Origin: Diplosphaera chodatii
Lineage: Eukaryota > Chlorophyta > Trebouxiophyceae > Prasiolales > Stichococcaceae
Assembly (NCBI GenBank): GCA_032358165.1
Contig: JAALGY010000041.1
Coordinates: 2,046,001 to 2,110,000 of the forward strand
Length of the DNA stretch: 64,000 nucleotides
Reading direction: 5' to 3'
A program made the position numbers and the translations under genes. Below are positions 6,218 through 50,013 of this stretch, one piece after another (the first letter of the stretch is position 1; every line of letters starts with the position of its first letter). The notes beneath the pieces were generated by a model, which had not been told where the DNA came from, searched no databases, and saw only the letters and a list, made by a program, of their open reading frames with translations.

Positions 6218-7175
6218 GTTATGATCAGTGAATGGGCTAGGTTGATATCACTGAGAGAGCCCCTCGGTGCCTAACGGACTAACACCTTTCTGTGGAATGC
6301 GGTTGGGTAGGAGCCGCGCCACGGAGTCTTGTGGACAATGACTGCACACGCTGCGTCGGTTGAGCTGGCCGAAGGCGTCACCAGCATTGCCTCAAGTGAT
6401 GTCCGGAGGACGGGCTTGTGACGCAGCTATCGTGATGTGCATGATTGGAAATTCAGTGGAAAACCAGCGAAGAGAGGCAGCCAGCCGGTGGCAGAGCAGG
6501 AGGCAGCAGTATGTGCGACGTAGCCAGCAAGGATTGTAGGTAAGTACTCCAGCACTTGGGCTGCATACACTATTCGGGGCACCTGTGACCAGCTTAGGGT
6601 ACCGCAGCAATCGATCATTCTTACACCGAGCATTGGCTCCAGGCTAGCACACTACTGCTGATGGCAGCACATCAGACATGCAGCCGTAGTCCGTATTCGT
6701 CACAAATGGAGCTAGGCTGTTACCTTTGCGTGCCATTGCAGTCGTCTGTGGATAGTCAGTCAGGACTTTGGTTTTGAGAGGGTGCTGGCTGTGCCAGTCC
6801 CGTGAAGCATATTCACCGCAGTTAGCAGTGGTGGCGGAGGCAGACAGTACTGTGATGGGCGCTTGCCACCTTGCCGCCTGGTAGGCCTATCCTGCCCTAC
6901 AGAGCATGATGAAGCCTTGGGCACACCCTGCCGGCGCACAATGATAACCCAAGGCCATCTGCGACGTTCGGTTAGTTGATTGGGACTGGTTGGGACTGCA
7001 GTTGGCTGGTGGAGTCGTACTTGCTGGCTCGTGGCTCCACTAGCTGCATCCTGTGTTGTCGGACTTCCATCACAGGAGGCAGCATGCTGGCAACCTTGGG
7101 CAGAGCCCAGCTTCCCTGATCTGCTTACGATCAGTGCATTCAGAGTGCTGGCTGTGTCCACACCCATACGTGGGC
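6218..7175. other. Intergenic region, kinase A to EamA transporter
   Basis: About 960 bases with no frame showing a recognisable domain or a set of compatible splice sites. It holds the 3' end of kinase A and the upstream region of the transporter. The transporter frame stays open upstream to 7053, so its start could lie before 7176. Confidence 0.45.
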
Positions 7176-10100
7176 ATGCGCTACGCGCAGTTGCTTCAAT
7201 GTAGGTGCATCCGTGATCTTAGGCCATCACAGCTGGGTCCACGACGTGCAGGCCTAAGATCGTATGTCTCTACAGCACTGTCATCGGTTAGATTCTCATC
7301 GAATCCTACCACAGCACACGGCACAGCGCATGCACGACTGCGCAGCGGCACTCCATGCCAGCGAGCGGATCAGCAGCGGTCTGTGCTCAACCGCGTGCAG
7401 CAGCGCCGTGGGTGCGGCACGGTAGGCCGGCGCGGGTTGATGGTACAGGGTCGCAGCGAAGCGACCGACGACAGCCCACAGATACCCAGCGCTGTGCCGG
7501 CAAAGGACATGCCAGATGATGGACAGAGCGCAGGAAGCACAACTGGCGATGACATGAGTTCCGGCCCCGGCTCCACGCCGCTGCAGCGGCCGCGCTTTGC
7601 TGTGCCGGGGCAGCTCATCATCCTGACGGTAGCGCTGCTCTGGGGCACCAACCCGCCTGCGCTGCGGTACCTCTACGCTTCTGACGGTACAACAGACTTG
7701 GCCCGATCCACATGGATGAGCCTCACTGCTTGCAAGTTTGCCTCTGCATTTTCACATTGCCTGCTGCCTGGTGCTCTCTGTTAACTGCAGCAAAGGTGCG
7801 AAGTCGAGGGCTCTGCCCACTGCAGGTCCGCCCTCCCCCGCCGCGCTCGCTGGGGTGCAGGCGACCGCCGCTGCGGCGCTGCTGCTGCTCCTCAGCGCGG
7901 CGCGCAGCCGGCTGCAGGGCGCCGGCAGCGGCGGCCGGCAGGGCGACGGCAGCGGCCGGAGCCTGGCCGACGGCGGCGGCGGCAGCGGGCAGCGCGGGGG
8001 CGGGGCAGCAGCGGGGCAGCCACCGCCCCGCCGCTGGAGGCGCGACGAGCCGTCCGACCTTGCGGATGCGGATCCAGAGGCGCCGGACCCAGAGCGCAGG
8101 GACCCGCAGCTGCAGCGGCTGATAGACCTGGAGCCCGCGGGCAGCGGCGGCAGCCCCTCCATCCGCAGGTCCGTCTGCCCTTAGCTGGACTACCCTAACC
8201 TGTGAGGTCAGTCAGCAGACCTTGTAAAATATCTGCCATCGGGCATACGATCCGTGTTGGCCATGCTGCACCATCACCTTTCCTGTGGTGTTACCGCAGG
8301 CGGCATAGCCTCAGCATTGAGCGTAGCCCAGATGTCGATGGCGGTGCGGGCAGCCGAGTGATGTCGCTGAAAGGAGCGCTCAACTCTTCAACAGATCGCC
8401 TGCTGCTTGCAGGTGCCGAGGTGAGGTTTGATAATCCTTGTTGCTAGTGCAGTGTGCTGCACCCACATTGGCCGCACTGCATCACACAAGCACGCGCATC
8501 AGCATGCAGCTGCTTGGCATGCGACCACCATCAACCCTTGCAGCTGATGTTGAGCTGTGTCATGGTCAACCACAAGGTGGGCGCCTGGGGCTTCCTGGCT
8601 AATGCAGCAACTGTGTCGGGGTTCCAGAACACAGCGGCGTCCCGCGGCGCCTTCCTCATCAGGCTGTCTGCCATTCTCACGCCCCTGATCGCAAGCCTAG
8701 CAGGTAAGCTAAACACGCCAAGGGGGTTCATGCTGCAGACTTGCTTGCCATCTCTCGGCGAGGTTGACACGGCAAGGTCATCTTTAAATCCCGGGTGTGC
8801 AGGCGAGAGCATTTCGCTGCGAATCTGGGGGGGCTGCGTTGCCGCGCTGGCGGGCGGGGTGCTGATGACGCTTTCGCACTCTGGACCGGACGCGACGAGC
8901 GCCTTCAGCGGTCTCGCAGCGGGGGACGCCCTCCTCATCGTGGCAGCCCTGCTGTGGTCCGTCCAGGTGCGAAGCTCAGAGCTGCTCTTTCTGATGGAGA
9001 CCACCAACAGTGAGCTGGGGTCAGTTCCTCGTGCATCAGGCCATGGGTCCCCCCGATACCATGCATGTACCAGCTTTGCTACATGCATTTTGCTCATCTT
9101 TGCAGTTGTCATTCACAGGGTATGGTGTCACAGCAGTAATCGCTCTTGCAGTGCCTGCTCGCCTCGTGAGTTTGAAGAGGCTGGTTGTAAACTGCAGACG
9201 GTGCGCCTGGGGCGGCATGCCATGAAGTTTGAGCCGCTGGCGATGGCTGCGGCATCCATGACGGCCATGGCGGTGTTGTCGGATGTGTGGCTGGCGGCGG
9301 ACATCTCCTCAGCCGTCCTCAGCGGCAAGTCAGCCGACAGCGTGTGGGCTGGCTGCAGGTACAGTGCTTCGAGGGGCATTGCAGCCCACCAGTCGTGATG
9401 ATGGTGTGTCCAGTCTGCAGCGCCATGAGAATCATGCTATGGTGTGTCGTCACAGTAAACCATGAATTCATCTGCTGCCCTTGGCCAGAGCCAGTAGGAC
9501 ATCCAGAGGTGCGGGCTGCAGGTGTGTCGACACTGTGACAGGCCCTTTTATTTTCCCCATCTGTGTGCCCGTCTCGTGACGCAGGGTGCCGCTCAACTGG
9601 GCGGTGATGCTGTGGCCGGCGGTGGCGCCCTGGGGCGCGGGGCAGGCGCTGCAGGTCGCCGGCCAGAGCATGATCTCCTCGTCCCAGACGCAGGTGCTCA
9701 ACTGAACCGGCCACAGTTTCCGAGCGCACGCGAGCTGGCACCAGGCGCAGGTCTGCGCAGGTCTGCTATGTTGACCAGTTGGGCGGGGTGCTTGTCTTGT
9801 GGTCCGGCACTGCATCCTGCACCACCCCTGATCCAGCTGCCATACGGGCCATGCGCACTAGGACTGTATGTGGTAATCTGTGGTAATCCCGCGTGGCTCC
9901 GGGCCCAGATCCTGATGGCGTCGGACCCGCTGTGGGCGACGCTGTTCGCGGGGGTGCTGGGCGCCGCGGAGCAGGACCTGGGGCCCGCCGGCTGGGCGGG
10001 CGGAGGCCTCATCATTGCGGTGAACTATCGAGTTCCCTTGCGAGCTTAGTATGATGGCAAGCTCAACATGATAGAGTATAGAATTTGTCCATCACAAGAC

Positions 10101-10201
10101 TTCAGGAATGCTGAATCATTCATTGGCTCCAGGGCGCGGTGCTGGCGGGCACAGGCGGCTCGACGCCCCACGGCCAGCGGCCGCCGGACGAGCTGGAGTG
10201 A
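7176..10201 (+). CDS. EamA/DMT-family transporter, probably plastid-targeted
   Basis: Exons 7176-7686, 7826-8168, 8300-8420, 8544-8703, 8803-8966, 9198-9358, 9585-9693, 9909-10019, 10133-10201 give 582 codons plus stop. The first about 140 residues are Arg/Ser/Ala-rich with few acidic residues, like an organelle transit peptide. ATG 7176 was chosen because the targeting-like run starts there; an in-frame ATG at 7053 is an alternative. TM1 is around residues 143-166 (ALLWGTNPPALRYLY). Residues about 197-325 are a Gly/Arg/Ala low-complexity loop. The EamA signature then continues with GAWGFLANAATVSGFQNT and ASRGAFLIRLSAILTPLIAS, and a second EamA half ends near LIIAGAVLAGTGG. Substrate unknown; the family exports metabolites or amino acids. 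The long hydrophilic loop after TM2 is unusual for a DMT protein. Confidence 0.85.
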
Positions 10202-10534
10202 ATGCAGCTCGCCTTGTTGTAGCACTGTAGTAGACACATGGCAGGGCTGCTGCCCACATTGGGCGTGTATATGACCATACATGTTGGAGCATCTGCCGGG
10301 CTGGTGCGACTGCACGGAGTGCATACAGGAGCTTTTCATCTGGACTTTGTCTAGACTGTTCATTCAGATGAACCGGCCTTGCATCTGTATGGGCCCGTGC
10401 GTGTACAATCAATTGCAGTCAGCGAAAACGCTATGTTGGACAGATGCCTAGGTTGGTTTGGCGGCTGAGTCTTTGCATCCGCACAGCTACGCATTGTTGT
10501 GAAACCTTGAGGTTGGCTGGTGGGCGGGCTGGCA
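10202..10534. other. Convergent intergenic region
   Basis: The 333 bases between the stop codons of the EamA gene (+) and the DUF427 gene (-). I see no gene or clear poly(A) motif in it. Confidence 0.5.
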
Positions 10535-11508
10535 TCAAGACACCTGGACGCCGTTCCAGAAGGCATAGTAGCCCTGCGCAGCAAGCCACATGTGGTCAGC
10601 ACAGTCTGCAAATGCCAGTGACGTCGACGCACTGCTCGGCGCTAACAGATGTCGGGCCCACCTTGATGTTCTCGGCTGCAGACTTCGGCGTAGCATAGTA
10701 CCACGCGGCGTCCTTGTTTACGTTGCCGTCAACCTACGAGCAGAACACTGCTTCTGTACCCTCAGCTGGTGCAGTTTGCACACGGGCGCGCTGCAGTGTC
10801 AGGAGCTTACTGAGCGTGCGCCAGCCATAAATTCCTCGGCACTGGACATCTGCAGCAACTAGCATTTGACGCAGGGGCGCACCTCGACGGACTTGTAGTT
10901 CGCCGTCCCCTTCCTGGTAAATCAAAAGGAGCTCTGTTGGTTTCGGCTAAACATGATATGAAAAACATAATTAAAACTGGAAACAACGGTACACAAAACC
11001 AAACTTTTTGCTGAGCTAGTACCAGCCACAGACTGTCGTCTTGCCGCTGTCCTGCAGACACACTGTGCAGGTCAGTACCAAGACGTCCATCTTTAAGTCA
11101 TCGTGAAGTTAGCTGTGTCAGTTCCATCAGGACCACCTTGAAGTACTCCTGCTTGATGGAGTCGGGCGGGAAGTAGTGGTTGCCTGCATCAGAGCATGGT
11201 GTGGTGTCATGCCCTGGCACTCCACTCAGCATGCAACTCCTGCGTTTCAGTGCATGCACGGAACATAGTTGTGACGATGACGCTGTTTTGAGGCATGCAA
11301 CACAAGGATGTCAAGGCGAGATGCCATCGATTGAACTCACCCTCGACCTTCTCGGTCTTGTCACTCTCCGCCAGCACCCTCCCATCTACATGGTTCCACA
11401 AAGCACCCCATGAAGTGCAGGCGTGAACGTACTCACCACCACAAGCAGCATTTCGGGATAAATTGCGTCTCAAAGGCGCTGCAGCTCACTCCAGGTGGCC
11501 TTCACCAT
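10535..11508 (-). CDS. DUF427 (NTP_transf_9) family protein
   Basis: Seven tiny exons on the minus strand: 11508-11490, 11385-11341, 11183-11137, 11051-11023, 10913-10883, 10733-10662, 10573-10535, giving 93 codons plus stop. The protein starts [18 protein letters not shown], continues through [35 protein letters not shown] and [20 protein letters not shown], and ends [12 protein letters not shown]. That covers the complete DUF427 fold (Pfam PF04248), whose biochemical role is unknown. All phases agree. The usual CPWKG of the family reads CGWKG here. Intron 4 (11022-10914) is mitochondrial nad1 sequence and is listed separately. If it were retained, translation would stop at a TAG two codons past the exon end. 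Confidence 0.9.
10914..11022 (-). other. nad1: Intron derived from mitochondrial nad1 (NUMT intron)
   Basis: On the minus strand this 109-nt intron reads, from its first base, as NADH dehydrogenase subunit 1: [20 protein letters not shown] followed by [16 protein letters not shown]. This is the highly conserved ND1 segment ending just before the Glu of DLPE. The donor GT is the first two bases of the Val codon and the acceptor AG comes from the Pro codon plus the first base of the Glu codon. Codon choice is AT-rich, unlike the flanking GC-rich exons. The flanking exons join in phase to give GWKG, as DUF427 requires, so the fragment must be spliced out. I see no further nad1 sequence on either side. 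Confidence 0.9.
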
Positions 11509-12474
11509 CTTGCTGGTCCCCGCTGCGGCTGTGATGAGTGACCGCCTGGGTGGTGCAACACGCACCGAACGGACGATGCGAAGCGGTGCAACTGATGTGC
11601 GCGCTGCTGCAAGCATGAGTGGCGGGGAGCTGGCCGGAGTGAAAGTGCAATGGTGATGCGCACCGCTCCATCATGTGTCCTGATTATGCGGAGGGGACCC
11701 CGTCTGGAGAGTCCCCTCTTCGTCATCGCCCTGCCAATCTGGCGAGGCGCACATGGGTCTGCCTGCAGGTGCAGCTGGCGCACAGTGGCCATTCCGCGGT
11801 GGAGGCCGCCCCGAATCATACTGACCCCGCTTCACAGCCGTAACGACTGGTACGAGACGGTGCAAACGACTATGCGTGCTGCACGCATGGCTGTCGGAAG
11901 ATCGTGCTGTGCCATGCTACGCTAATTCTCGGCAGCCCGAGGAGCCAGCAATAGCACATGCATGCTGCGGCCGTGCTGGTAACAACCTGTGGGGCTTTGG
12001 GTGCCTTTTGCTCGCGCGGTCAGACTGCCGATTGCAAGGGCACGTGAGGTGGCAGTCACTTAGAACCAGCATGGTTAGCATCATAATCCAGATCCGTCGG
12101 CATGCTCGAGGCATGCGAGGCTCCCCTGCGGACCTAGAACTTCCTTCATTGCCAACTGTGAAGCGCCAGCAGGCCTGAAGCGACAGCATTTGGGCTGTAG
12201 GTGAGACATTAGTGGAGATCAAGTCGAGAATATGCCAGATTTCGGTGGCTGACCGGCTTGTTCGCTCACAGTGCCCATGTGAGCTGTTGCGGAAGGCTCG
12301 CGATGCTGTAAAGCGTGGCGGCTGTGTCCCGATCATGCAGAAGGACTTGCTGCACCTACCAGTTTCTGCTGCAAGCCGAGTGAAAACACCGAACGCTGAT
12401 CCCAGCGTCCCAGGGACACTTGCAGCGACTGATTGAGAGCTCTGTGACCGCTTGTGCTCGCCAGGTGCGCGAGC
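11509..12474. other. Divergent intergenic region, DUF427 and EGT1
   Basis: About 970 bases between the DUF427 start (-) and the EGT1 start (+). Open frames here lack recognisable domains. It likely contains both promoters. Confidence 0.45.
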
Positions 12475-15400
12475 ATGGGTGCTACAGATGGTGCACCGGT
12501 GGCGGCAGCCGCGCAGCCGGCAGGAGCTGATGCAGATGCAGCTGCACAGCCCCCAGCAGTGGACGGCGCCTACAGCGGCCTGCTGGACGCCCTGCGACGC
12601 AGCCCGAAGCAGCTGCCGTGCTCCTACCTCTATGACGCCGCCGGCAGCGAGCTGTACGAGCGGATAACGGAGCTGGATGAGTACTATCCGTTCCGCACTG
12701 AGCAGGCGATGCTGCGGCAGCATGCCCGGGAGATCGTGTCCTACGTCGCACCAGGTGAGTGTGCTGGGCTAGCTGACCAGAACATGCTAAAGCAGATTGA
12801 CAGTGCAAGTGCTCACTGCATCTCTGCCGTTCTCATGCTATCTGCGGCGCAGGTGCAATGATGGCAGCACCTCGGTAACGCTTGAGGCAACGATGCCGTG
12901 TGCTCATGCAGGCAGCGTGGTTGTGGAGCTGGGCTGCGGCAGCGCGCAGAAGACCAGCATCCTGCTGAACCAGCTGCTGGCGCGCGACGGCCCCGAGCAG
13001 GCAGGACACCGCTCCCCCTGCTGTGTCCTACATCCTGCACCGCACCTGCATCTACAGCAGGGCTGACGCCAGACCTGGGCGCGCCATCAGGCTTGGCGGC
13101 ATCACCCTGCAGATGCAGCGATGGGTACTGGCTCCTCAAACGATCTCAACGTAACCGTGGTGATGCCTGTGCAACGCGGCAGGTGCCGGTCAGTGAGTGG
13201 CCGATGTCCAAAACCCTGTTCGCACTCCAAGCAGGTGCGGTTTGCGGGCATCGACTGCTCCGCCGCGGCGCTGGACATGGCCAAGACGGCGCTGCTGGGC
13301 AGCTGCGAGGGGCTAGCGCCCCGCAACATCTCCCTGGTGTGCCGCGAGTATACCCAAGGTGGGGATGCGGTTCAGCATGTGGTGTGCACCTGCAGGTCTA
13401 CACCAATGGGCGTGCTTTGATCTTGACAGCAAAAGCTACCAGCAATGCCGTCAAGACCAAGCATGGCAAGGTATGAGAGTGTCGGAGCACTGCTTTGGGG
13501 ATGCGCTCTCCCTCCGAACCAGCATAATGAGGGCCACCATCGCTACCTCAGGCGTGGCGGAGTGTCGGCGGCTGTTCCCCAACCAGCAGCTGGTGGTGCT
13601 GTGGCTGGGCAGCTCAGTCGGCAACCTCAACCCATCCGAGGCGGTGCAGTTCTTCCGGGACATGACCGCTGGCGCTGGCTCGAACATCCAGGTACGCGCT
13701 GAGACCAGCCAATGCAGGAGTCCTGCTGCTGTGGCACAGCCTGCTGCAACCTATTGTATCGCCTAACGCACCGGTATGCCACCGTTGGGGGTGACATAGG
13801 ACTGCACTCGCATCTATGATTTCTGTTGGCTTTGCTGGCGTGTGGAAGTCGTTGATGTGGGATATCTTGCCCATTGATGCAGGTGCTGCTGTGCGCGGAC
13901 ATGTGGAAGCAGCGCGAGGTGCTGCATGCGGCGTATCATGATCGCGAGGGCGTCACGGAGGCCTTCATCAAGAATGGCCTGCGCCATGCATTTGGCTCAC
14001 TGAGCTGTGCTGCCGCCGCCGACCCCGACAACTGGGATTACGAGGTATGATCCTGGACAGTTTACTGCTGTGCCAGGCTGTTCGATGACTTGAGCACTGC
14101 ACATAAACCTGTCATTTCGCATGTTGTCTCATATGACTGCAGCACTGTGCAGGCGCCGGCTTGCACAGTGTTGCAGCAGTCGCCAGTCAGTTTAGGCTGA
14201 TATTGGTTTCTTCATCACACAGGTGGATGTCAATGCGGATGACACACAGGTCGAGATGTGGCTGCGTGCAAAGACGGACATCGGGCGGGTGGCAGATGGT
14301 AAGCAGCTTTGTGGTTCACCGCGCAACTTGAGTAGCCGCGTTCTGCTTGTCACAGGTTGGGCGCATGTGCCAGGACGGCTGCGCTGTGCTGACGCCCACA
14401 AGTCCCATGTGGATTCCGCACCGCCGCGTGACTGTCCTGCCGACTGCTGCATCAGGCGTGCGCATTGTGGCCAATGAGCGGGTGCTGGTGGAGGTGTCCC
14501 GCAAATTCACGCCGGGCAAGCTGGCGGGCCTCGCCTACAACTCCGGCCTGTACATTCAGGTACTTGCCTGCAGCTGTGCTCTATGCCCATATGTGTGACC
14601 TGCACACGGGGTCAAACCCAGCTCCCATCAGACACGCGGAGCAAGGGCGGCACGTGCAGCAAGGCAACAGCAGGCAGAAGCAACAGCCGAGCAGCACCTC
14701 TTGCAACGCCCAAGCGTTGTGCGTCACAGGCGGCGTGGCGCACGGACATGTACAGCGTGCAGCTGCTGGTGTCGCCCGAGGAGGCGCTGTGGCGGTGTTG
14801 GGCCGACGCTGACGCCTTCTTCAGCAGGTGCGCTGTACCCTCACATCGCAGACTTACAGCTGCATGGCAGCCGGGGCGCTGCTCAGAATGGCACCGTATG
14901 CTTCGCTTTCTGTTGCATCGATGCTCTGCACCATGCAGTCACATCACTGCAGGACGCGCTCATTGCTGCCAGTCGCCATGCAGGATACCAGACTGGAGTG
15001 CGCATCCCATCGCTGTACGCCACCCCTTCTGCTTCTACTACGGCCACATCGCGTCGTTTGCCAAGATCAAGATGCTGCCAGACATGCCCATGGTGAGCGT
15101 AGCAAGTCTTGATCCGACTCATGTATGCTACGAATCTGGCTCGTGAGTCTCAGCGATGCAAGCAGTCAGTGGACATGCAAGCAGCAGGCATGTTCAGCTG
15201 GAAGGTTTGCCACGAATTGGTCCTTCAGTTGCTGAGTCGCATGATGCACTGCCAATGATGCACACGTCATATGCACAACTGCACTTCGACACTGCTGACA
15301 GGCATACTTGCCACAGTCAAATGCATACCGACTTCGCCTCCCCTGCTCTGCAGAGTCGCATGGATGAGATGATGTCTCGGGGCATCGACCCCGACGTGGC

Positions 15401-17664
15401 AGACCCGTCCCACTGCCACTCGCACCCGGAGGTCCCAGACAAGTGGCCCAGCCGGCAGGAGCTGCGCGCTTACGTGTCACAAACACGCAGCGCCATCCTG
15501 CAGCACGGCGGCCTCGACAGCTGCTGCAGCCACGCGGAGACAATGCGGAAGGTGTGTCGAGATTTTGCCCTCACATGTGATCTGCTTGCAGCGCTCAGGT
15601 GTGGGATGCTGCACTTGCAGCTGCCTTGAGATACCGTGCAATGCGATACGCCCATCGTTGCAGGTGTGCCTGGCACTGGAGCACGAGCGCATGCACCTGG
15701 AGACACTGATGTACATGGCGGTCCAGCAGGTGGGGCAGGCCTTGGTAATGTTGTTATCTCACCTCAGCGTAAACGGGGCAGACGGCGGACACATGGAAGG
15801 TTTTCACATGCGCGGCGGACTCCCAGCTCATTGCTGCGGCCCTGTTACCGCTGGCGGCAGCGGCCAAGGCAGCTGCTGGTCTGATTGCAGGTCAAGGCGG
15901 ACTTTCTAGCAGGCCCAGAGCGGCCGGCCACGCCGCGCGGCAGCCAGTCTGCCAAGGTGACGGCCGCCGACAGCAAGGCCGCCGCCTGCAACGCCATCTC
16001 CGTCCCAGGTGAGGCCTGGATGTACAGCTCCAACACGAGTTGATGGGTGCGCGCACCACTGGAGCAGTGTGCACAACAGCTCCGCAGGCAGCGCCCGGCG
16101 GATGTGGGCTGTGACGCGAGCTGAGCAGCTTAGCCGCTGACAATGCTGAACGTGCAGAGGGCGCGGTGCAGCTGGGCGTGCCGACGGACGGCAGCGCCGG
16201 CTTCGTGTGGGACAACGAGGGGCCCCCGCAGCCCCCGCAGCAGGTACTTCCTGCTGCCACCAGCCGCCTGTGCCTCTTGTGCTGCCGTGCCGGGCAGGAG
16301 GCGTTGTGCTCGTCATCCCATCACCCGATCTCTATGCTGCAGCACTGTGGCACCCGCTGCGCAGGTGGCACCTTTCCGCGTGGCGGCCGGCCCGGTCACC
16401 ATTGGCGAGTTCTACGCCTTTGCCGTCACGGCCCGCGGCTACGAGCAGCCGGAGTTCTGGGACCCCGAGGACCATGCGCTGTTTGCCGGCCGGGGCCAGG
16501 TGACTGCTCATGCGCAGTGCGAATCTCTGTGTGTCTCACGCTTGCGGTATGCTGCATGCATTGCTGGGCGCCCACTGGGCACAGTGGTGTACGACAGGCC
16601 AGGTGCAGTTTGCCACATGCCAGGCGGCAGATGACATCTTCTGCCCCTACGGAACAGGCTGTCCCGTCGTTCAGCACACAGTCGTGCATGGCACCGGTGG
16701 ATCTGGATCTAACACTGCATGCTGTGATGCAGATGCTGCCGGCGACCTGGTCACAAGCGTATGAGGGCGCCTCAGTGTTTGTGCACTGGCCCAATGGCAG
16801 CACCTGCGGCTGGCGGGATGTCATGGACGAGCCCGTGCTCTGCAGGTTCGCCTCGTACTGATTCTTGGCGGGCGGCAAGCCCAGCGCCTGTTGCAGCATG
16901 TGGCCTTGGCCTATCGCGAGCAATGCTGCGCAGGCTGAATTGCTGCAGCAGAGGCCTTCGTAACAGGGACGACTCTCGGATCGGCTGAGCCTTCAGATGG
17001 AGCTGAGCCGTTGTTGCTCTGGCTCGCAGCTTGGCGGAGGCGCAGGCGTACTGCCGCTTCCGCGGCGCCGGCGCCCGCGTCATGAGCGAGCCGGAGTACC
17101 AGCGCCTGCTGCTGCCAGACGTGCATGCCAGGTGCAGATGTTGCTTGGTGCAGCGCTGCACAGAGCGCTCCGGGTCGGATGGGCAATCTGCTGCTGATCA
17201 TGCTGTGCCATTGCCAAGGTCTCATCTGCAGACGTTCCATCAGCTGCTCCGCAGCATTGTCACAGTAGTCACCTGTCATGCTGCAGGGTGCAGCAGCTGC
17301 GGTCTGGCGGCTGGGAATGGACGTCCACACCATTCGAGCCGCTGCCGGGCTTCCAACCCATGGAAGAGTATCCTGAGTATAGCACAGGTCAGTGCTGCAC
17401 CATGAACCTCAATCAGGCATTGCTTCCGACACAACTTGTGTCCATGTCACATGCTTCATGCTGACCTAGATGCTAGCTTCGGAACCGCCCTGACACTGTG
17501 CTCGCTCTGGTGCAGACTTTTTTGACGGCAAGCACTATGTGCTGCGGGGTGCCTCGTCGGTGACTGACCCCGCCATGCGCCGCGACAGCTTCCGCAACTT
17601 CTACCAGAAGCAGTACCCATATGTCTTCGCCAAGTTCCGCCTGTGCTATGACGCGGCATCATAG
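12475..17664 (+). CDS. EGT1: EGT1-type ergothioneine biosynthesis fusion (EgtD-EgtB)
   Basis: Exons 12475-12754, 12912-13000, 13235-13358, 13552-13691, 13883-14044, 14223-14298, 14456-14559, 14730-14827, 14984-15092, 15354-15551, 15664-15729, 15891-16008, 16158-16243, 16365-16499, 16733-16845, 17030-17131, 17287-17387, 17516-17664 give 749 codons plus stop. Residues 1-357 are an EgtD-type histidine methyltransferase (YDAAGSELYERITELDEYYP, SAM site VVVELGCGSAQKTS). Residues about 358-482 are the DinB-like part of a sulfoxide synthase with iron ligands His379 (HPFCFYYGH), His467 and His471 (HERMHLE). Residues about 520-749 are the FGE-sulfatase-like part, ending WEWTSTPF and FFDGKHYVLRGAS. Methyltransferase-first order is that of fungal Egt1, not OvoA, so ergothioneine from histidine and cysteine is the likely product. 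Intron 13001-13234 has a GC donor. The segment expected just before GWEWTS seems short; a small exon could hide in 17132-17286. Confidence 0.93.
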
Positions 17665-43800: not shown

Positions 43801-46800
43801 CCGCAGCTCGAGCAGTTTGGACCCTGCGCAAGCACGGCATGCAGCTGTCAACTTTGGCAAGAGTCTGCATGGTTGGTCAGTATCGGGCGCTTGTGAATAG
43901 TCACCCACTTGTGCAGGTGTATCTGGAGCGTCTGCCGCAGCTTGTGGGCCGCACATTTGGCAGCCTTGCATTCCAGCTGCCTGACGGGATCCCCTTTGGC
44001 CTCGTCAATCACTTCAGGTGTGGCATTGTCTGGTGTACACGGCAGAGAGCTTCCGAAGTGTCTGTTGAACTGTCACGTCCACAGGTGTGGACAAATTAGG
44101 ATCAGAGTGTGAGATCTGTGACAGAGGCAGACCCCTGTCACTTGTTTGCGTGCAGCGGCAAGTGCACGATCAACCCGCCAGTCAACACGTTCGTCCAGGA
44201 GGGTGACGAGATCGTGCTGCTACGGCCGACCGGCTTCAAGCCGGGCGACTATCAGCCACTGGATCAGCCAGTGCAGCTGCCACACAGTACGTCACGCTAC
44301 ACAGTCGACCAAACACCCATGCAGTCCAGCAGATTGCAGCGTATGACCTGTGCACATTGTGCCATGCGGACTAGAAGGCCGTGTTCGGCACTGCAGGTGA
44401 TTGGAGCGAGTCCGACTATGTGTGCTCCGAGTGGGACCTCTCATCCGAGGACATCCTGACGATGAGGTACGGCACACCTCGTGTCGCAGTGATGTGACCA
44501 AGGTCAAAGTCTTGGCATACCTGGGGGTACACTACCTTGTAAACCCTTACGGTCTGTCTTGGCAGCTCCAGGAAGTGTGGTATGGTGCGCATAGATACCC
44601 GGGGTGTGCGCACGGCATGTGGTTGCAAGGAGTCAACTACAATGTCAAATGTGTCAACACTGGCTCCACGCTGGCTTTGCAGCCAAGACGGCTTGGACTC
44701 GCCGGCGCGCGCCATGTTTGAGGCCAGCGCCGACGATCAGCCCGCCAGCCCGCAGTACCTGCTGCCCATGGAGTACACCCACGCTGACGCCGATGCCGAG
44801 GTGACTACAAAATCCTAACCCTTAGCGTGCAGAGGCTCTGCAGTGCACGCAGCAGGCGGAAGAGGCTCAACAACGTGGCGACTTGGGTGTTCCCACCACG
44901 TCACGAAGGGTGCCAGCATGCTGGCTGTGACAGTTTTGTGTGTGTAATGCAGCGCATCCTGGTCTGCGGCTGGGGCGAGCCCACCTTCATGAGCAACCTG
45001 CTTCGGGAGCTGGACCACGGGCCAGCAGCGCTGCCCAGAAACTCGGAGGTCGTCATGTTCAACCGCCTGGAGACAGAGCAGCAGCAGGCCATGCTGTCGG
45101 TGAGCGCAGTGGTTGGAGCTGCGTTACTTGGCTGTGGACTGCTGGCCAGGACATTCCTGAGCAGTTGTTCATGCGGCTATTCAGCCGGCACAGTACTGCC
45201 TTGTCTGTGCACTGCCGTCACTGAACATGCTCTCATGACATCAGGCCTGCTGTTTTGCAGGACTTTGGCAAGCTGCGCAACATCCGCCTGCTGCATCTGA
45301 AGGGCAACCCGCTCAACCGCAAGGAGCTGGCAGACAAGATCGACATCGCCACGTGCGCCATGGTTCTGTGGAGGACTCTGGGTCTTGCACCGTTGCCCGT
45401 CACAGATGGCCTGGGCGCAGCAGCCCTGGGCGCATCAGGCACACCTATGCTGATTCTGGCATTGGTCTTTCCTGGTGTTGCTGTGAGCGCATGGTTGTGG
45501 GGGGACAAACTGCATTGCTGGATGACCAGGTACAAGAGTGCGGTGGTGCTGTGTGACATGGAGTGGGTGGACCCCGATCTGCGCGTCGCCAACGGTATCG
45601 CCATCTCAGACCAGGGCGACATGCTGCGGCTGGACGCGATGCTCATGACAGTGCAGCTGAACCTGCGCAAGATGCTGGAGGTGCGCCCATCACTCATGTG
45701 TCATATGCACTGCGATTGCAGCCCTCTGGCACGATGTAGCAGCTGCCTGAAGAGCACATTGCTGTAGTAGGCCCTGGCGCAGCAGCCCGGCGCAGCAGGC
45801 CAATACTGCACTCACTGACATGCGCCCAGCCTGACATCGTGCAGGAGGCCGGCATGCACACCACCATCCTCATCAGCGAGAAGTGCGCATTTGAAGGCAC
45901 GACGCGCTTCGAGGACGGGCTGCGGCTGCCGCTGGGCATCTCCGTCAACTTCCCCTCCTTTGCAGCCGGCATCCTGACCGAGGTGAGCGGCACTCACTGT
46001 TCAAGGTCTCCCCCTTGACACAGTGCATGCAAGTGGGGGCTGTCTGCACCAACACTCGCATGCGAGGGGGCTCTGCACGTTCAAGCAACAGTCTGATGTT
46101 TGAGCATCACTTACAGAGCTGCTGTACACGAGCGTGCAGGTGGCTTACAACCCCAAGGTGCTGCTGCCATTCAGCCACCTGGGCGAGACGGACGAGATGC
46201 GGGTGCAGGACGCCTCCTGCCTCGCGGCGCGCGACGAGCACGTCAGCTTCTGGGAGCTGCAGGTGGGACAACAGTCTTTCGCCAATACGCTCGAGGGGCA
46301 TGCTGCGTGCTCTTGAAACCCGGGCCGGTCAGCTGCATCCAGTAACTGGCCCTGGTCCGAGCTGGCAATTCAGACGGGAAAAGATGTTGTTTTGCAGTTG
46401 TGCGCAGCCCGACTCTTCGACACATGTGCACATTGCAGCGGCGGGCGCAGTGCGTGGGGCAGGTGCTGCTGGGATACCTGGAGGTGCCGGCCGCCATGGA
46501 CCAGCGGCTGTCCTTCGTGGTGAACCCGGCGTCGGCGGCGCGCCACGAGGAGCGCGTCTGGAACGCCGGCGACCAGCGCACCAAGCTGATCACGATATCA
46601 CCCAAGGAGGAGGCAGCCAGGGGTGGGCGGCTGCGCTCGCGGCTGGCGCAGTCGGCAATCCGGGAGACGCTGGGCAGCTCGGGCGGCTCGCAGCGCAAGT
46701 CCTATGTCATGGAGCCACCCCTCAGGGTGAGCCCAGGCCCCTTGATTTACACCCATGCCCTTTGACATAGTGACATAGTGACATAGCAAATTGCAGATCT

Positions 46801-47060
46801 GGCATCCCGCGACAGCACATCACATGAAAAAGGAGCATATGGCGGGAGTATGTGGCGGCAGCATGCGTCCTATGCACTGGGGGAATTCAGTGGACAAGGT
46901 CTCAGTTCACCCTGTGCCCATTTATCTGTCATTTATCTATCCATTGCAGGCCACCAGCACCCTGACTGACGAACTGTTGGAAGCTGCGTCACTCAATGCT
47001 GCGTCAGCTGTGGACAGCGCCGATACAAGGGACAAGAAGCAAAGATTTTCGTCGCTGTGA
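40818..47060 (+). CDS. CASTOR/POLLUX-like RCK-domain ion channel, plus-strand copy
   Basis: Exons 40818-41338, 41454-41690, 41782-41874, 41977-42052, 42156-42215, 42301-42429, 42533-42595, 42705-42836, 42971-43042, 43144-43226, 43366-43566, 43717-43792, 43917-44017, 44156-44286, 44397-44466, 44683-44800, 44953-45099, 45261-45352, 45530-45680, 45830-45982, 46140-46262, 46439-46726, 46950-47060 give 1075 codons plus stop. The N-terminus (MPSSQPLLLRSCTGSVHSVL, Ser/Arg-rich to about residue 55) looks like a chloroplast transit peptide. Membrane segments occur at about 287-310 and 330-372, the latter with IIVFGQQLPD. RCK-type Rossmann units start near 394 (ILVLAWADNRKDLEVVWKVL) and 722 (RILVCGWGEPTFMSNLLREL). 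CASTOR/POLLUX proteins are cation channels of nuclear or plastid envelopes. The exon at 46140 could start at 46119 instead. Confidence 0.88.
46764..46786. repeat. Intronic microsatellite
   Basis: About three copies of the 8-base unit gacatagt in the last intron of the plus-strand channel gene. Confidence 0.9.
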
Positions 47061-47191
47061 TGCGGTGCTACAGCATGAGTGCACCACCGTGCGCGATGGT
47101 TACTGCTAACACTTAAACGGGAGCGCCGGAAACAACCTGACCCACGGGTGATGAGCTTCATGTGAGGTGAAGTTGTATGGCAGTTTATTGC

Positions 47192-47196
47192 TGTAA
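47192..47196 (+). terminator. TGTAA poly(A)-type signal, plus-strand channel gene
   Basis: TGTAA, the usual chlorophyte polyadenylation motif, lies 132 bases after the channel stop codon. Confidence 0.45.
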
Positions 47197-47452
47197 CTTC
47201 CTGCACCGCATTGTATGCTTTGCTGTTCAGCATAGAGGAGTTACCAAGTATTGCCTGGCATGTTCGCTACTTCCTGCAAAGCCGGCATGCACCTGTTTAC
47301 CCGACCCTGCGGACATCACACGCGCAGCTGCAAACTTCTGGTTTCATCTTTGTCTCCTACCACTTGCTGCACTTGGTTGTACGTCCACTGGTCCGCTGAT
47401 GTCCTCTACCTCGAGGGGTAGATATGCCCCAGCGTTGAATGTCGCACCTACG

Positions 47453-47617
47453 CTAAACCCTAAAAACGCCGCACGCTGCAATCAGACCACGCGAGCGCCC
47501 GTTTGCACTTGCAAACAGCTTGCAGATGTCATAGATGACCTTCTCGATCAGGCTATACGTGCGCGCGGCGCAGGACCTCGAGTTTTGCGCCGTGCAGCCT
47601 AAACCCTAAACCCTAAG
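47453..47617. repeat. Short interstitial telomeric repeats (CCCTAAA)
   Basis: ctaaaccctaaaa at 47453-47465 and cctaaaccctaaaccctaag at 47598-47617: about 1.5 and 2.7 units of the plant/algal telomere repeat TTTAGGG in reverse orientation. They lie inside the chromosome between two genes, so this is not a chromosome end. Confidence 0.75.
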
Positions 47618-47998
47618 GCAATGTCCGCACCATTTCGCGCTGCGCGCCTTTCTAGCCATCGATCTCTACATTGCATTTGCGCAACGTGTTCCTAGACGTC
47701 AACTTGGTCAGTGGGGCTGCTGGTAGCGTGTAGACATGTCTGCGTGGGCATATTTTGGACGTCCCGTGTGGCCAACTATCATTGCACTACAGCTTCCAGC
47801 TTCCAATCTGGGTGCGAGATTCAACGCTTGGGGTAGACCCCGATTTGGCAGTGGTTCAATATTTGCCTGCCCTGCGGGGGTGTCCATCCGTGCTGCCGTC
47901 CAGCTTCCTAGGCAGCCATGCCACAGATCCGGGTGAGTGCAGTGAGTCACAGCAACGCTTGCGTGTGCCCGACTGTGTCCCAAACTCACATCAACACC

Positions 47999-49865
47999 AT
48001 GAAGGTCATATTGCTGTGCGTCGCCTTGGCGCTGAGCTTTGCGACCGGCGGTGAAGCTTCGTTGCGAAGCAATCTGCTGTCGCTGCACCTCCCAAGCCTA
48101 CAGGCTCACGGAAAGGCTCCCTGGTGCGCACCGCAAGCGTGATGTCGGTCTTTTTATGGGTCACATGGAATATGGCAGCTGCAGCTGGCCCCTGCAGCCT
48201 ACCGCCAATATGCTATATGCACCGTGCTGTGCAAGATGCTGCATGGCTATGGTTTGAGCAAACACCGTCGAGTGCATCTCCAGAAGCCATGTGACCTCGC
48301 ACATGTCTCGAAAAGCATGGGGCCCTTGCAAACACCAACATACGTCTGCGTATGCAGACCTAACTGAGAGTGTGCATCGCAAAATACTCGCAGGTTCTGC
48401 CACGGGCTGGACTGCCCAGGTGCAGCCCGCATGCCTCAAGGAGTCATGTTCATGCCTGAGCATGTAGTCACGTCAAGGCCAGTGCCGCTGCACAGGCAAT
48501 GCAGGCAACTGACTGGTGCCTGTTGACGCAGAGTACACTGTGGTCAATAAGACATGTGCTTACGAGGTCCGTGAGTACAAGGGAGGTGAGAGCATGACGC
48601 TGGGCAATCACGACGGACGGCTGCGTGTGCTTTGGGATGTTGCTCAATGTTAGGCAGCCGGAGCAGTATACACGTGTGCAGAGGCAAACCTTGTGAACTG
48701 GTGTGCGTTGTGGCGCAGGCGAGTGGGCGGCCACCCATGTGGACGGCAGCGGCTTCACTGTGGCCATGACACGGGGCTTTGCAAGGCTGTTCCGGTACAT
48801 CAGCGGTACGTGCTAACGGTGCAGCTGCTGACTGTGCATGCACCTCGTGAACACCTCATGCATGCCGGTGTGCTGCTGCTTCTGAATGTCAAGCGTCAAC
48901 CTACCAGGTGACAATGAGGAGAAGCAGAAGATCAAGATGACGACGCCTGTGGCAATGCAAATCAAGACAGAGCCGGTGTTTGCAAAGACCACGAACAACT
49001 ACACTATCGCCTTCTGGGTGCCAGAGATCTTCCAGGTGCACATGCAATCACACCCCTGCAAGACACCACCCAGATACAGACATAATGTCACGTGTTGCCT
49101 ATATGTATGTCACCGCGTCTTTATCGAGCCGCACCACGATTCACTGTCTCATCCCACATCCTACATCGTCACTTTGCAGGGGAGAGCGCCACAGCCTACG
49201 GCTGATGATGTGTTTGTCCGGGACGTCCCAAAGATGACGGCGTATGTAGGGCAATTCGGCGGGTTTGCGACCGAGGAGAGCCTGCTGAAGAAGGCAGCTG
49301 AGCTGGCGGGTGCTGCAAAGGTGGGGCTGAGGGCACGGTTTCTGAGCATGCCCATGGTCTGGACCGCTGTCAACGTGCCAACATGACATCCGGACCAAAG
49401 TAACGTCTCATTATCATTGCATGGCTTCACCATGGGACATGTGCATATGTGCAAACCTGGGTTTTCTGCATTCAGGCTGACGGCGTGGAACTCAACACAG
49501 ACGGCTTCTTCTGGTGCGCGTCTTTTGACAGCACTTAATGCGGTGCTGCTGGTGCCCTGGCCTGTGTAGCGACAGAGTTCCATGTTTCCAGTATCCTCAA
49601 TGTGACTGGAATTGCACTGCAGGGCCAGCTATGACCCGCCCTACAGGCTGACTGGCAGGCACAACGAGGTGAGACTGTGACACTCCAGCCTGTTGCTAAG
49701 CGTCAAGTGCAGCATCCAGTTGCTGTATGCACATGGCGGGCAATGGCAGCAGGAAGCCGGCCCTAGGCAGGCAGGCTACATAACCCCGTGCAATCTATTG
49801 GGCTCACACTAGTTTATCCGCTGCAGATCTGGCTGTCATCTAAGGAGGCCGACGCAACGCGCTGA
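47999..49865 (+). CDS. SOUL-family haem-binding protein with signal peptide
   Basis: Exons 47999-48123, 48394-48419, 48532-48585, 48719-48805, 48908-49035, 49180-49320, 49476-49513, 49623-49668, 49827-49865 give 227 codons plus stop. The start MKVILLCVALALSFATGGEA is a clear secretory signal peptide. The SOUL domain follows: APWFCHGLDCPEYTVVNKT, YEVREYK, EWAATHVDG, GFARLFRYISG, KIKMTTPVAMQI, FVRDVPKMTAYVGQFGGFA and a final YRLTGRHNEIWL. The 26-nt exon 48394-48419 is needed to restore the PWFCHGLDCP motif and fits by phase. SOUL/HEBP proteins bind haem or other tetrapyrroles. The signal peptide suggests a secreted, vacuolar or luminal location rather than plastid stroma. Confidence 0.92.
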
Positions 49866-50013
49866 AGCTCAGTCGAAGTGCCAGTGCTTCACGAGCATAT
49901 TCAAGTGATCAGGCCACAATGATGTGAACCGTGCGTGGTGCCATGCACTGGCTGCGCTGTTGTATTGGAATGTTTTCAGTGGTCGACAATGCATACCGTT
50001 TTGGGCAATTGAT

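Follow-up and report, generated by a model that had tools for sequence, protein, structure and literature searches.

A recently inserted mitochondrial nad1 fragment as a candidate new intron in the green alga Diplosphaera chodatii

Where introns come from is an old question, and most introns are too old for their source still to be readable. Curtis and Archibald (2010) reportedly described an intron derived from mitochondrial DNA (mtDNA) in a GTPase-superfamily gene of Bigelowiella natans, and Li et al. (2009) are said to have found a new intron in Daphnia pulex that is similar to mitochondrial 16S rRNA. These two introns are cited elsewhere (PMC4757882 for Bigelowiella natans; PMC3443670 and PMC4202315 for Daphnia), and the Daphnia intron is ascribed to end joining at staggered breaks. 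A 2012 review tabulates five unambiguous intron gains by break repair, in Drosophila, Daphnia, Aspergillus, Bigelowiella and human (PMC3443670), and a 2022 paper names mtDNA insertion among the proposed routes of intron birth (PMC9860276). In Amorphochlora, plastid- and nucleomorph-derived inserts lie mostly in introns (PMC12730881). Introns derived from mtDNA are known as single cases, and their recurrence in one genome is a stronger finding than the individual intron from which we start here. Our literature search, which left subscription papers mostly outside its scope, did not turn up any green alga for which more than one intron born from mtDNA had been described.

The intron in question is the fourth of a nuclear DUF427-domain gene of D. 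chodatii. It resembles the Bigelowiella natans intron in that each derives from a piece of mtDNA of its own cell, and the Daphnia pulex intron in that both are new and have mtDNA content. It differs from the former in its trebouxiophyte green algal host, in a gain that is dated by an empty site in a duplicate within the same genome, in the presence of several cases per genome and in splicing that is predicted from the sequence. It differs from the latter, whose source is rRNA and whose host is an animal, in that protein-coding mtDNA was inserted and that the insertion distinguishes two duplicates within a single genome. The origin, short size and composite pieces of such inserts are shared with nuclear mtDNA insertions (NUMTs) in general; however, NUMTs do not have to match the bounds of an intron, as 4 of the 20 loci tested here (mostly picked for GT and AG close to their ends) do. 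Introners also create new introns in coding exons, but the multi-copy nuclear family that would mark one is absent for the DUF427 insert. The case gains interest from the empty site in the duplicate, from the dating and from its recurrence: one genome holds at least four cases with a readable donor, an empty site and readable junctions, one of them dated. With four readable cases in a single genome, a break-repair route from mtDNA to introns therefore becomes testable.

The DUF427 gene occupies positions 10535..11616 on the minus strand of the window (the whole 64,000-nt stretch of DNA analysed) and is modelled with seven exons, six GT-AG introns and a 129-aa product, in which the DUF427 domain (PF04248) spans residues 38-124 (1.2e-31). 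Exon 1 (11490..11616) encodes a putative transit peptide, MLAAARTSVAPLRIVRSVRVAPPRRSLITAAAG, and is followed by exon 2 (11341..11385), exon 3 (11137..11183), exon 4 (11023..11051), exon 5 (10883..10913), exon 6 (10662..10733) and exon 7, which includes the stop codon (10535..10573). The N-terminal extension, read by eye, looks like an organelle transit peptide. Among the best 120 of 7,983 protein matches to the spliced product, coverage of the query is mostly about 72%, 13 of the 18 that carry an organism name are cyanobacterial and the alga's own product is absent. A divergent neighbouring gene, starting at 12454-12756 of the window, matches histidine-specific methyltransferases (PF10017, 3.2e-19) and is presumably EgtD-like.

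Intron 4 (10914..11022, minus strand) is 109 nt long, has a GC content of 36% and is derived from mtDNA throughout. Read on the minus strand from 11022 to 10914 it runs GTACTAGC...TTTACCAG, opening with GTACTA and closing with TTACCAG, and corresponds to nad1 codons 177-212 plus one base; the ND1 translation starts at base 1 of the insert and yields 36 aa. As a query against the assembly (85.6 Mb, 55 contigs; E <= 0.001), these 109 nt found two places: themselves and C54:32170-32278, with 106/109 identical positions (97.2%) and zero gaps. The source on C54 is an open frame with a Pfam NADHdh match (5.6e-126); among the matches listed for its protein, the named ones are Chloroidium (88%) and Jaagichlorella (86%), and other listed proteins reach up to 100%, and the named matches point to a probable trebouxiophyte source. 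C54 is 83,919 bp long with 26.5% GC (window: 59.5%) and carries 21 tRNA genes (ARAGORN, run on nine pieces), bacterial-type rRNA matches and group I and group II introns; its LSU rRNA match spans the contig ends. Because of its size, low GC, tRNA genes, rRNA matches and introns, C54 is taken as the mitogenome of the assembly.

The mtDNA that flanks this nad1 segment (AAGTA before, AAGCGG after) is unlike the nuclear flanks, and homology therefore stops at the splice dinucleotides GT and AG; the BLAST extension of the match to 10900 is a low-identity tail. The match is not due to chance, scoring 184 bits compared with 44.6 bits for the best of 500 Markov-resampled controls, and none of the other five introns of the gene matches the mtDNA at E 1e-3. 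These results bear out the initial annotation, which had read intron 4 as nad1 coding sequence throughout, lying in the direction of the host gene with its ends at the splice sites: the near-identical match in the nad1 of the same genome ends precisely at GT and AG, which stand in the orientation of the gene. The locus is thus a nuclear sequence clearly like the cell's own mtDNA, within nuclear flanks that are collinear with contig C38, and mtDNA makes up the entire intron from GT to AG over all 109 nt. An introner, that is, an intron-generating element, was ruled out on the same search, since the insert matches only itself and the mtDNA and has no nuclear family. Transfer of a group II intron was also ruled out; the source is nad1 coding sequence, and C54:32170-32278 has no Rfam match at the gathering threshold.

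Three positions of the insert (4, 63 and 84) differ from the mtDNA, each with T in the mtDNA and C in the nucleus, and by its letters the insert is not a copy of present-day mtDNA, because of these differences. All three are synonymous, for which the probability, in relation to which lineage changed, is 0.08 if only T-to-C changes are considered and 0.009 for any change. Mitochondrial DNA is usually abundant in sequencing libraries and is a possible source of artefacts, so that a library or assembly error could in principle have fused it to a nuclear contig. We give such an artefact a negligible probability here: against it stand the three differences, the length of just 109 nt between nuclear flanks that align to C38 on both sides, and a host contig (C35) of 3.5 Mb.

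The site of the insertion is empty in a duplicate of the gene. Positions 6438..15478 of the window are collinear with C38:316554-325500, with 77% identity over 8,590 aligned bases, and the largest one-sided gap of this ~9-kb alignment is the 109-nt insert. The C38 copy has the five other introns at the same positions and exons 4 and 5 as one unbroken exon, TGCGGCTG-GAAAGGG; in the C35 copy exon 4 ends in ...TGTGGCTG, exon 5 starts with GAAGGGGACG, and joining the two restores CGWKGTA. The two contigs match again, in the same order, at 45-50 kb of the window, and identity over the collinear stretches at 6438-15478 and 45000-50000 is about 68-79%. Single-locus matches pair other contigs as well (C19/C25, C13/C44 and C33/C50), and the pairing of contigs suggests an old genome duplication or a hybrid origin.

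The insertion is recent and postdates the C35/C38 split. The two gene copies differ by a dS of 0.34 and a dN of 0.026, and divergence in the other introns and the 3' flank is 0.32-0.74. An insert present before the split would be expected to have gathered about 17-18 changes on its own branch alone, and it has no more than 3 (P 1.2e-5 to 2.8e-5); if the fastest intron sets the rate, the expectation rises to 40 changes (P 3e-14). Insert and mtDNA are separated by roughly one sixth of the per-branch dS, which sets a maximum for the relative age provided that the three changes all arose in the nucleus and that rates are similar. It is because the C38 exon is unbroken and at most 3 changes are found where 17-18 are expected that we place a recent entry into an existing exon. 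Both points had been anticipated in the initial annotation, which proposed insertion into an existing exon as a recent event; the related gene in which this exon runs through is the C38 duplicate of the same genome, and not a gene of a sister species.

A different history, in which an older intron at the site was refilled with mtDNA or an intron was lost from the C38 copy, is very improbable. A possible parallel is a gene elsewhere in the genome: two of its copies share an insertion site but not the mtDNA piece found there, perhaps through turnover of an older intron (L122, below). At the site of intron 4, by contrast, the C38 exon is unbroken, and two events would be needed, the complete replacement of an older intron by mtDNA and a loss from C38. 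The insert carries no more than 3 changes, which makes it much younger than the split and its loss from the C38 copy very unlikely.

At the junctions, an ancestral CTGGAAG, reconstructed from the C35 and C38 copies, became CTG-GTAC...CCAG-GAAG. GG flanks the insert on both sides and is either a 2-bp target duplication or part of the mtDNA. Either 109 nt were inserted cleanly, or 107 nt of mtDNA (TAC...CCA) came to lie between duplicated GG; with a G on both sides in the mtDNA, the sequence fits the two readings equally. If the 107-nt reading holds, the host supplied the G of both splice sites. Exact GT...AG ends arise by chance in about 0.2% of fragments per orientation, or 0.5% for nad1 sense fragments, so that one exact pair among a hundred or more insertions in two orientations is not remarkable. 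We therefore rejected the exact ends alone as proof of an intron, the number of insertions being large enough for chance pairs now and then.

Removal of intron 4 by splicing is likely from the reading frame. If the insert is retained, the frame reads GGC TGG TAC TAG, with a stop at insert bases 5-7; if it is removed, the flanking exons join in phase, as originally proposed, and the complete 129-aa frame results. The splice signals at the donor and branch site look weak. The donor, GTACTA, is without G at +5, as is that of intron 3 (GTGGTC), and the good branch-site match that the mtDNA has at -24, CTAAC, is CCAAC in the insert; introns 3 and 6 have CTGAC at -21 and -23. Such weak signals would suit a mtDNA fragment that simply broke the gene and is hardly or not at all spliced, with the C38 copy doing the work and the GT...AG ends a coincidence. 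The many mtDNA-like insertions that would now and then have such ends by chance, the presence of the duplicate gene on C38 and an exon elsewhere that was broken by an mtDNA insertion (L030, below) all lend this account some weight. We nonetheless regard it as unlikely: GT and AG fall exactly at the two ends and in the direction of the gene, removal restores the frame with no base too many or too few, the remaining splice sites and frame of the gene are intact, and three further insertions in coding exons form whole introns. The intact exons carry little weight, because not much time has elapsed since the insertion.

We consider it likely that a nad1 fragment was captured in the uninterrupted DUF427 exon after the C35/C38 split and has persisted as a spliced new intron. 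A break would have occurred inside a coding exon of the nuclear gene when the C35 and C38 copies had already diverged, and a fragment of the cell's own nad1 would have been captured there, most likely by end joining. The piece starts with GT and ends with AG in the gene's sense (or with TA...CA between duplicated host GG). The spliceosome would then remove exactly what was added, and because it can do so the protein would be unchanged and the insert could persist as a new intron. Composite inserts made of several mtDNA pieces, found at other loci, fit end joining.

These other loci came from a genome search with four 10-kb mtDNA pieces, 40 of the 83.9 kb. Outside C54 and C55 (the latter guessed to be the plastid), the pieces gave at least 33, 36, 23 and 32 matches by our own count, with only the best candidates scored; some places occur more than once among them, and some matches, the tRNA-like L103 for one, may be something other than mtDNA insertions. 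Junctions were scanned at 103 loci and printed for 43. Duplicate copies were compared for 20 of the 103 (DUF427 and 19 others), chosen in most cases because GT and AG lie close to their ends; 4/20 is not a rate because of that choice, and 4/103 is a lower bound for the scanned loci. The 20 comparisons gave four whole introns with an unbroken duplicate exon, one ambiguous case, nine insertions in older introns or flank, one broken exon and five uninformative loci.

The four whole introns (DUF427, L068, L139 and L047) consist of one to three mtDNA pieces. L068 (C19:1086384-1086490; 107 nt) is one mtDNA piece at 96% identity, with an unbroken duplicate exon on C25. L139 (C13:918147-918261; 115 nt) joins three pieces end to end (98/91/94%), has an unbroken duplicate exon on C44 and, once removed, leaves a joined peptide that matches SBP56 (2.8e-11). 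L047 (C17:1827996-1828137; 142 nt) consists of two pieces (86 and 89%); the exon is unbroken in two C17 paralogues, which are only 72-74% alike and show small length differences at the site, and the gene's LRR matches lie below the Pfam cut-off. The mitochondrial frames of origin look like cob (L068, L139) and atp1 (L139). The mtDNA pieces of the candidate introns score 47-184 bits, whereas the top score among 500 resampled controls for each intron is 34-45 bits. These bit scores replaced a coverage control with lax scoring, which we rejected as poor evidence: 1-8 of 50 resampled controls per intron were partly covered, up to a maximum of 127 nt. In an earlier set of 60 controls for L139, 2/60 had any cover.

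On balance, we lean slightly towards mtDNA as a recurrent source of new introns in D. chodatii, with exon breaks patched by one to three pieces and no transposon involved. The acceptor G is host-derived in L068 and L139, where T follows the final A in the mtDNA, and in L047 the host provided the whole CAG of the acceptor. A patch between host Gs would receive the G of each splice site from the host and the rest from AT-rich mtDNA, so that T first and A last would be enough. By base frequency about 13% of fragments have these ends, compared with about 0.2% for full GT...AG; this mechanism is drawn from four cases, which came from searches that covered roughly half of the mtDNA.

The ambiguous case is a gene family with a 138-nt intron made of two mtDNA pieces in one copy (L122, C33:613999-614290), an intron of 83 nt in the same place, 49 to 56 bases of which match another mtDNA piece, in a second (L145, C50:682097-682498) and no intron at the site in a third (L144, C33:924774-925092). 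A sequence at C33:932.7 kb matches straight across the L122 site, and the matches of five further members of the family begin precisely at the edge of that exon. A first reading as two separate gains in one place was not upheld, as family matches often start at that edge, and an old intron with replaced content appears as likely as parallel gain.

Nine loci (L045, L057, L070, L083, L091, L103, L120, L125 and L130) lie, in our reading, inside older introns, at their edges or in other non-coding flank, with L083, L091 and L103 placed by one-sided matches only. L120, L125 and L130 were dropped as new introns, their duplicates indicating a pre-existing intron edge. Five loci (L081, L089, L113, L117 and L137) had no usable duplicate. 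At L030 (C33:446106-446185) an mtDNA piece lies in an exon of an NFU-like gene copy (NifU match below the Pfam cut-off), and three bases of the duplicates are missing. It failed as an intron, with a good donor (GTAAGC), no in-frame acceptor and a frame that is not restored; this gene copy is probably broken.

Nine mtDNA pieces, from the four whole introns, L122 and its C50 counterpart, fall in frames at least about 280 codons long; six have the sense of their frame and three are antisense to it. A sense-strand bias, which a first count of 6/7 had suggested, was dropped when two antisense pieces were added (6/9, no clear bias). At C26:1768586-1768865 (L025), two mtDNA pieces (140 and 109 nt) are bridged by a third match (39 nt) into a composite. 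Mitochondrial-like pieces also sit at the donor or acceptor end of apparently older introns at L045, L103, L108 and L125, where they may supply a splice site in use.
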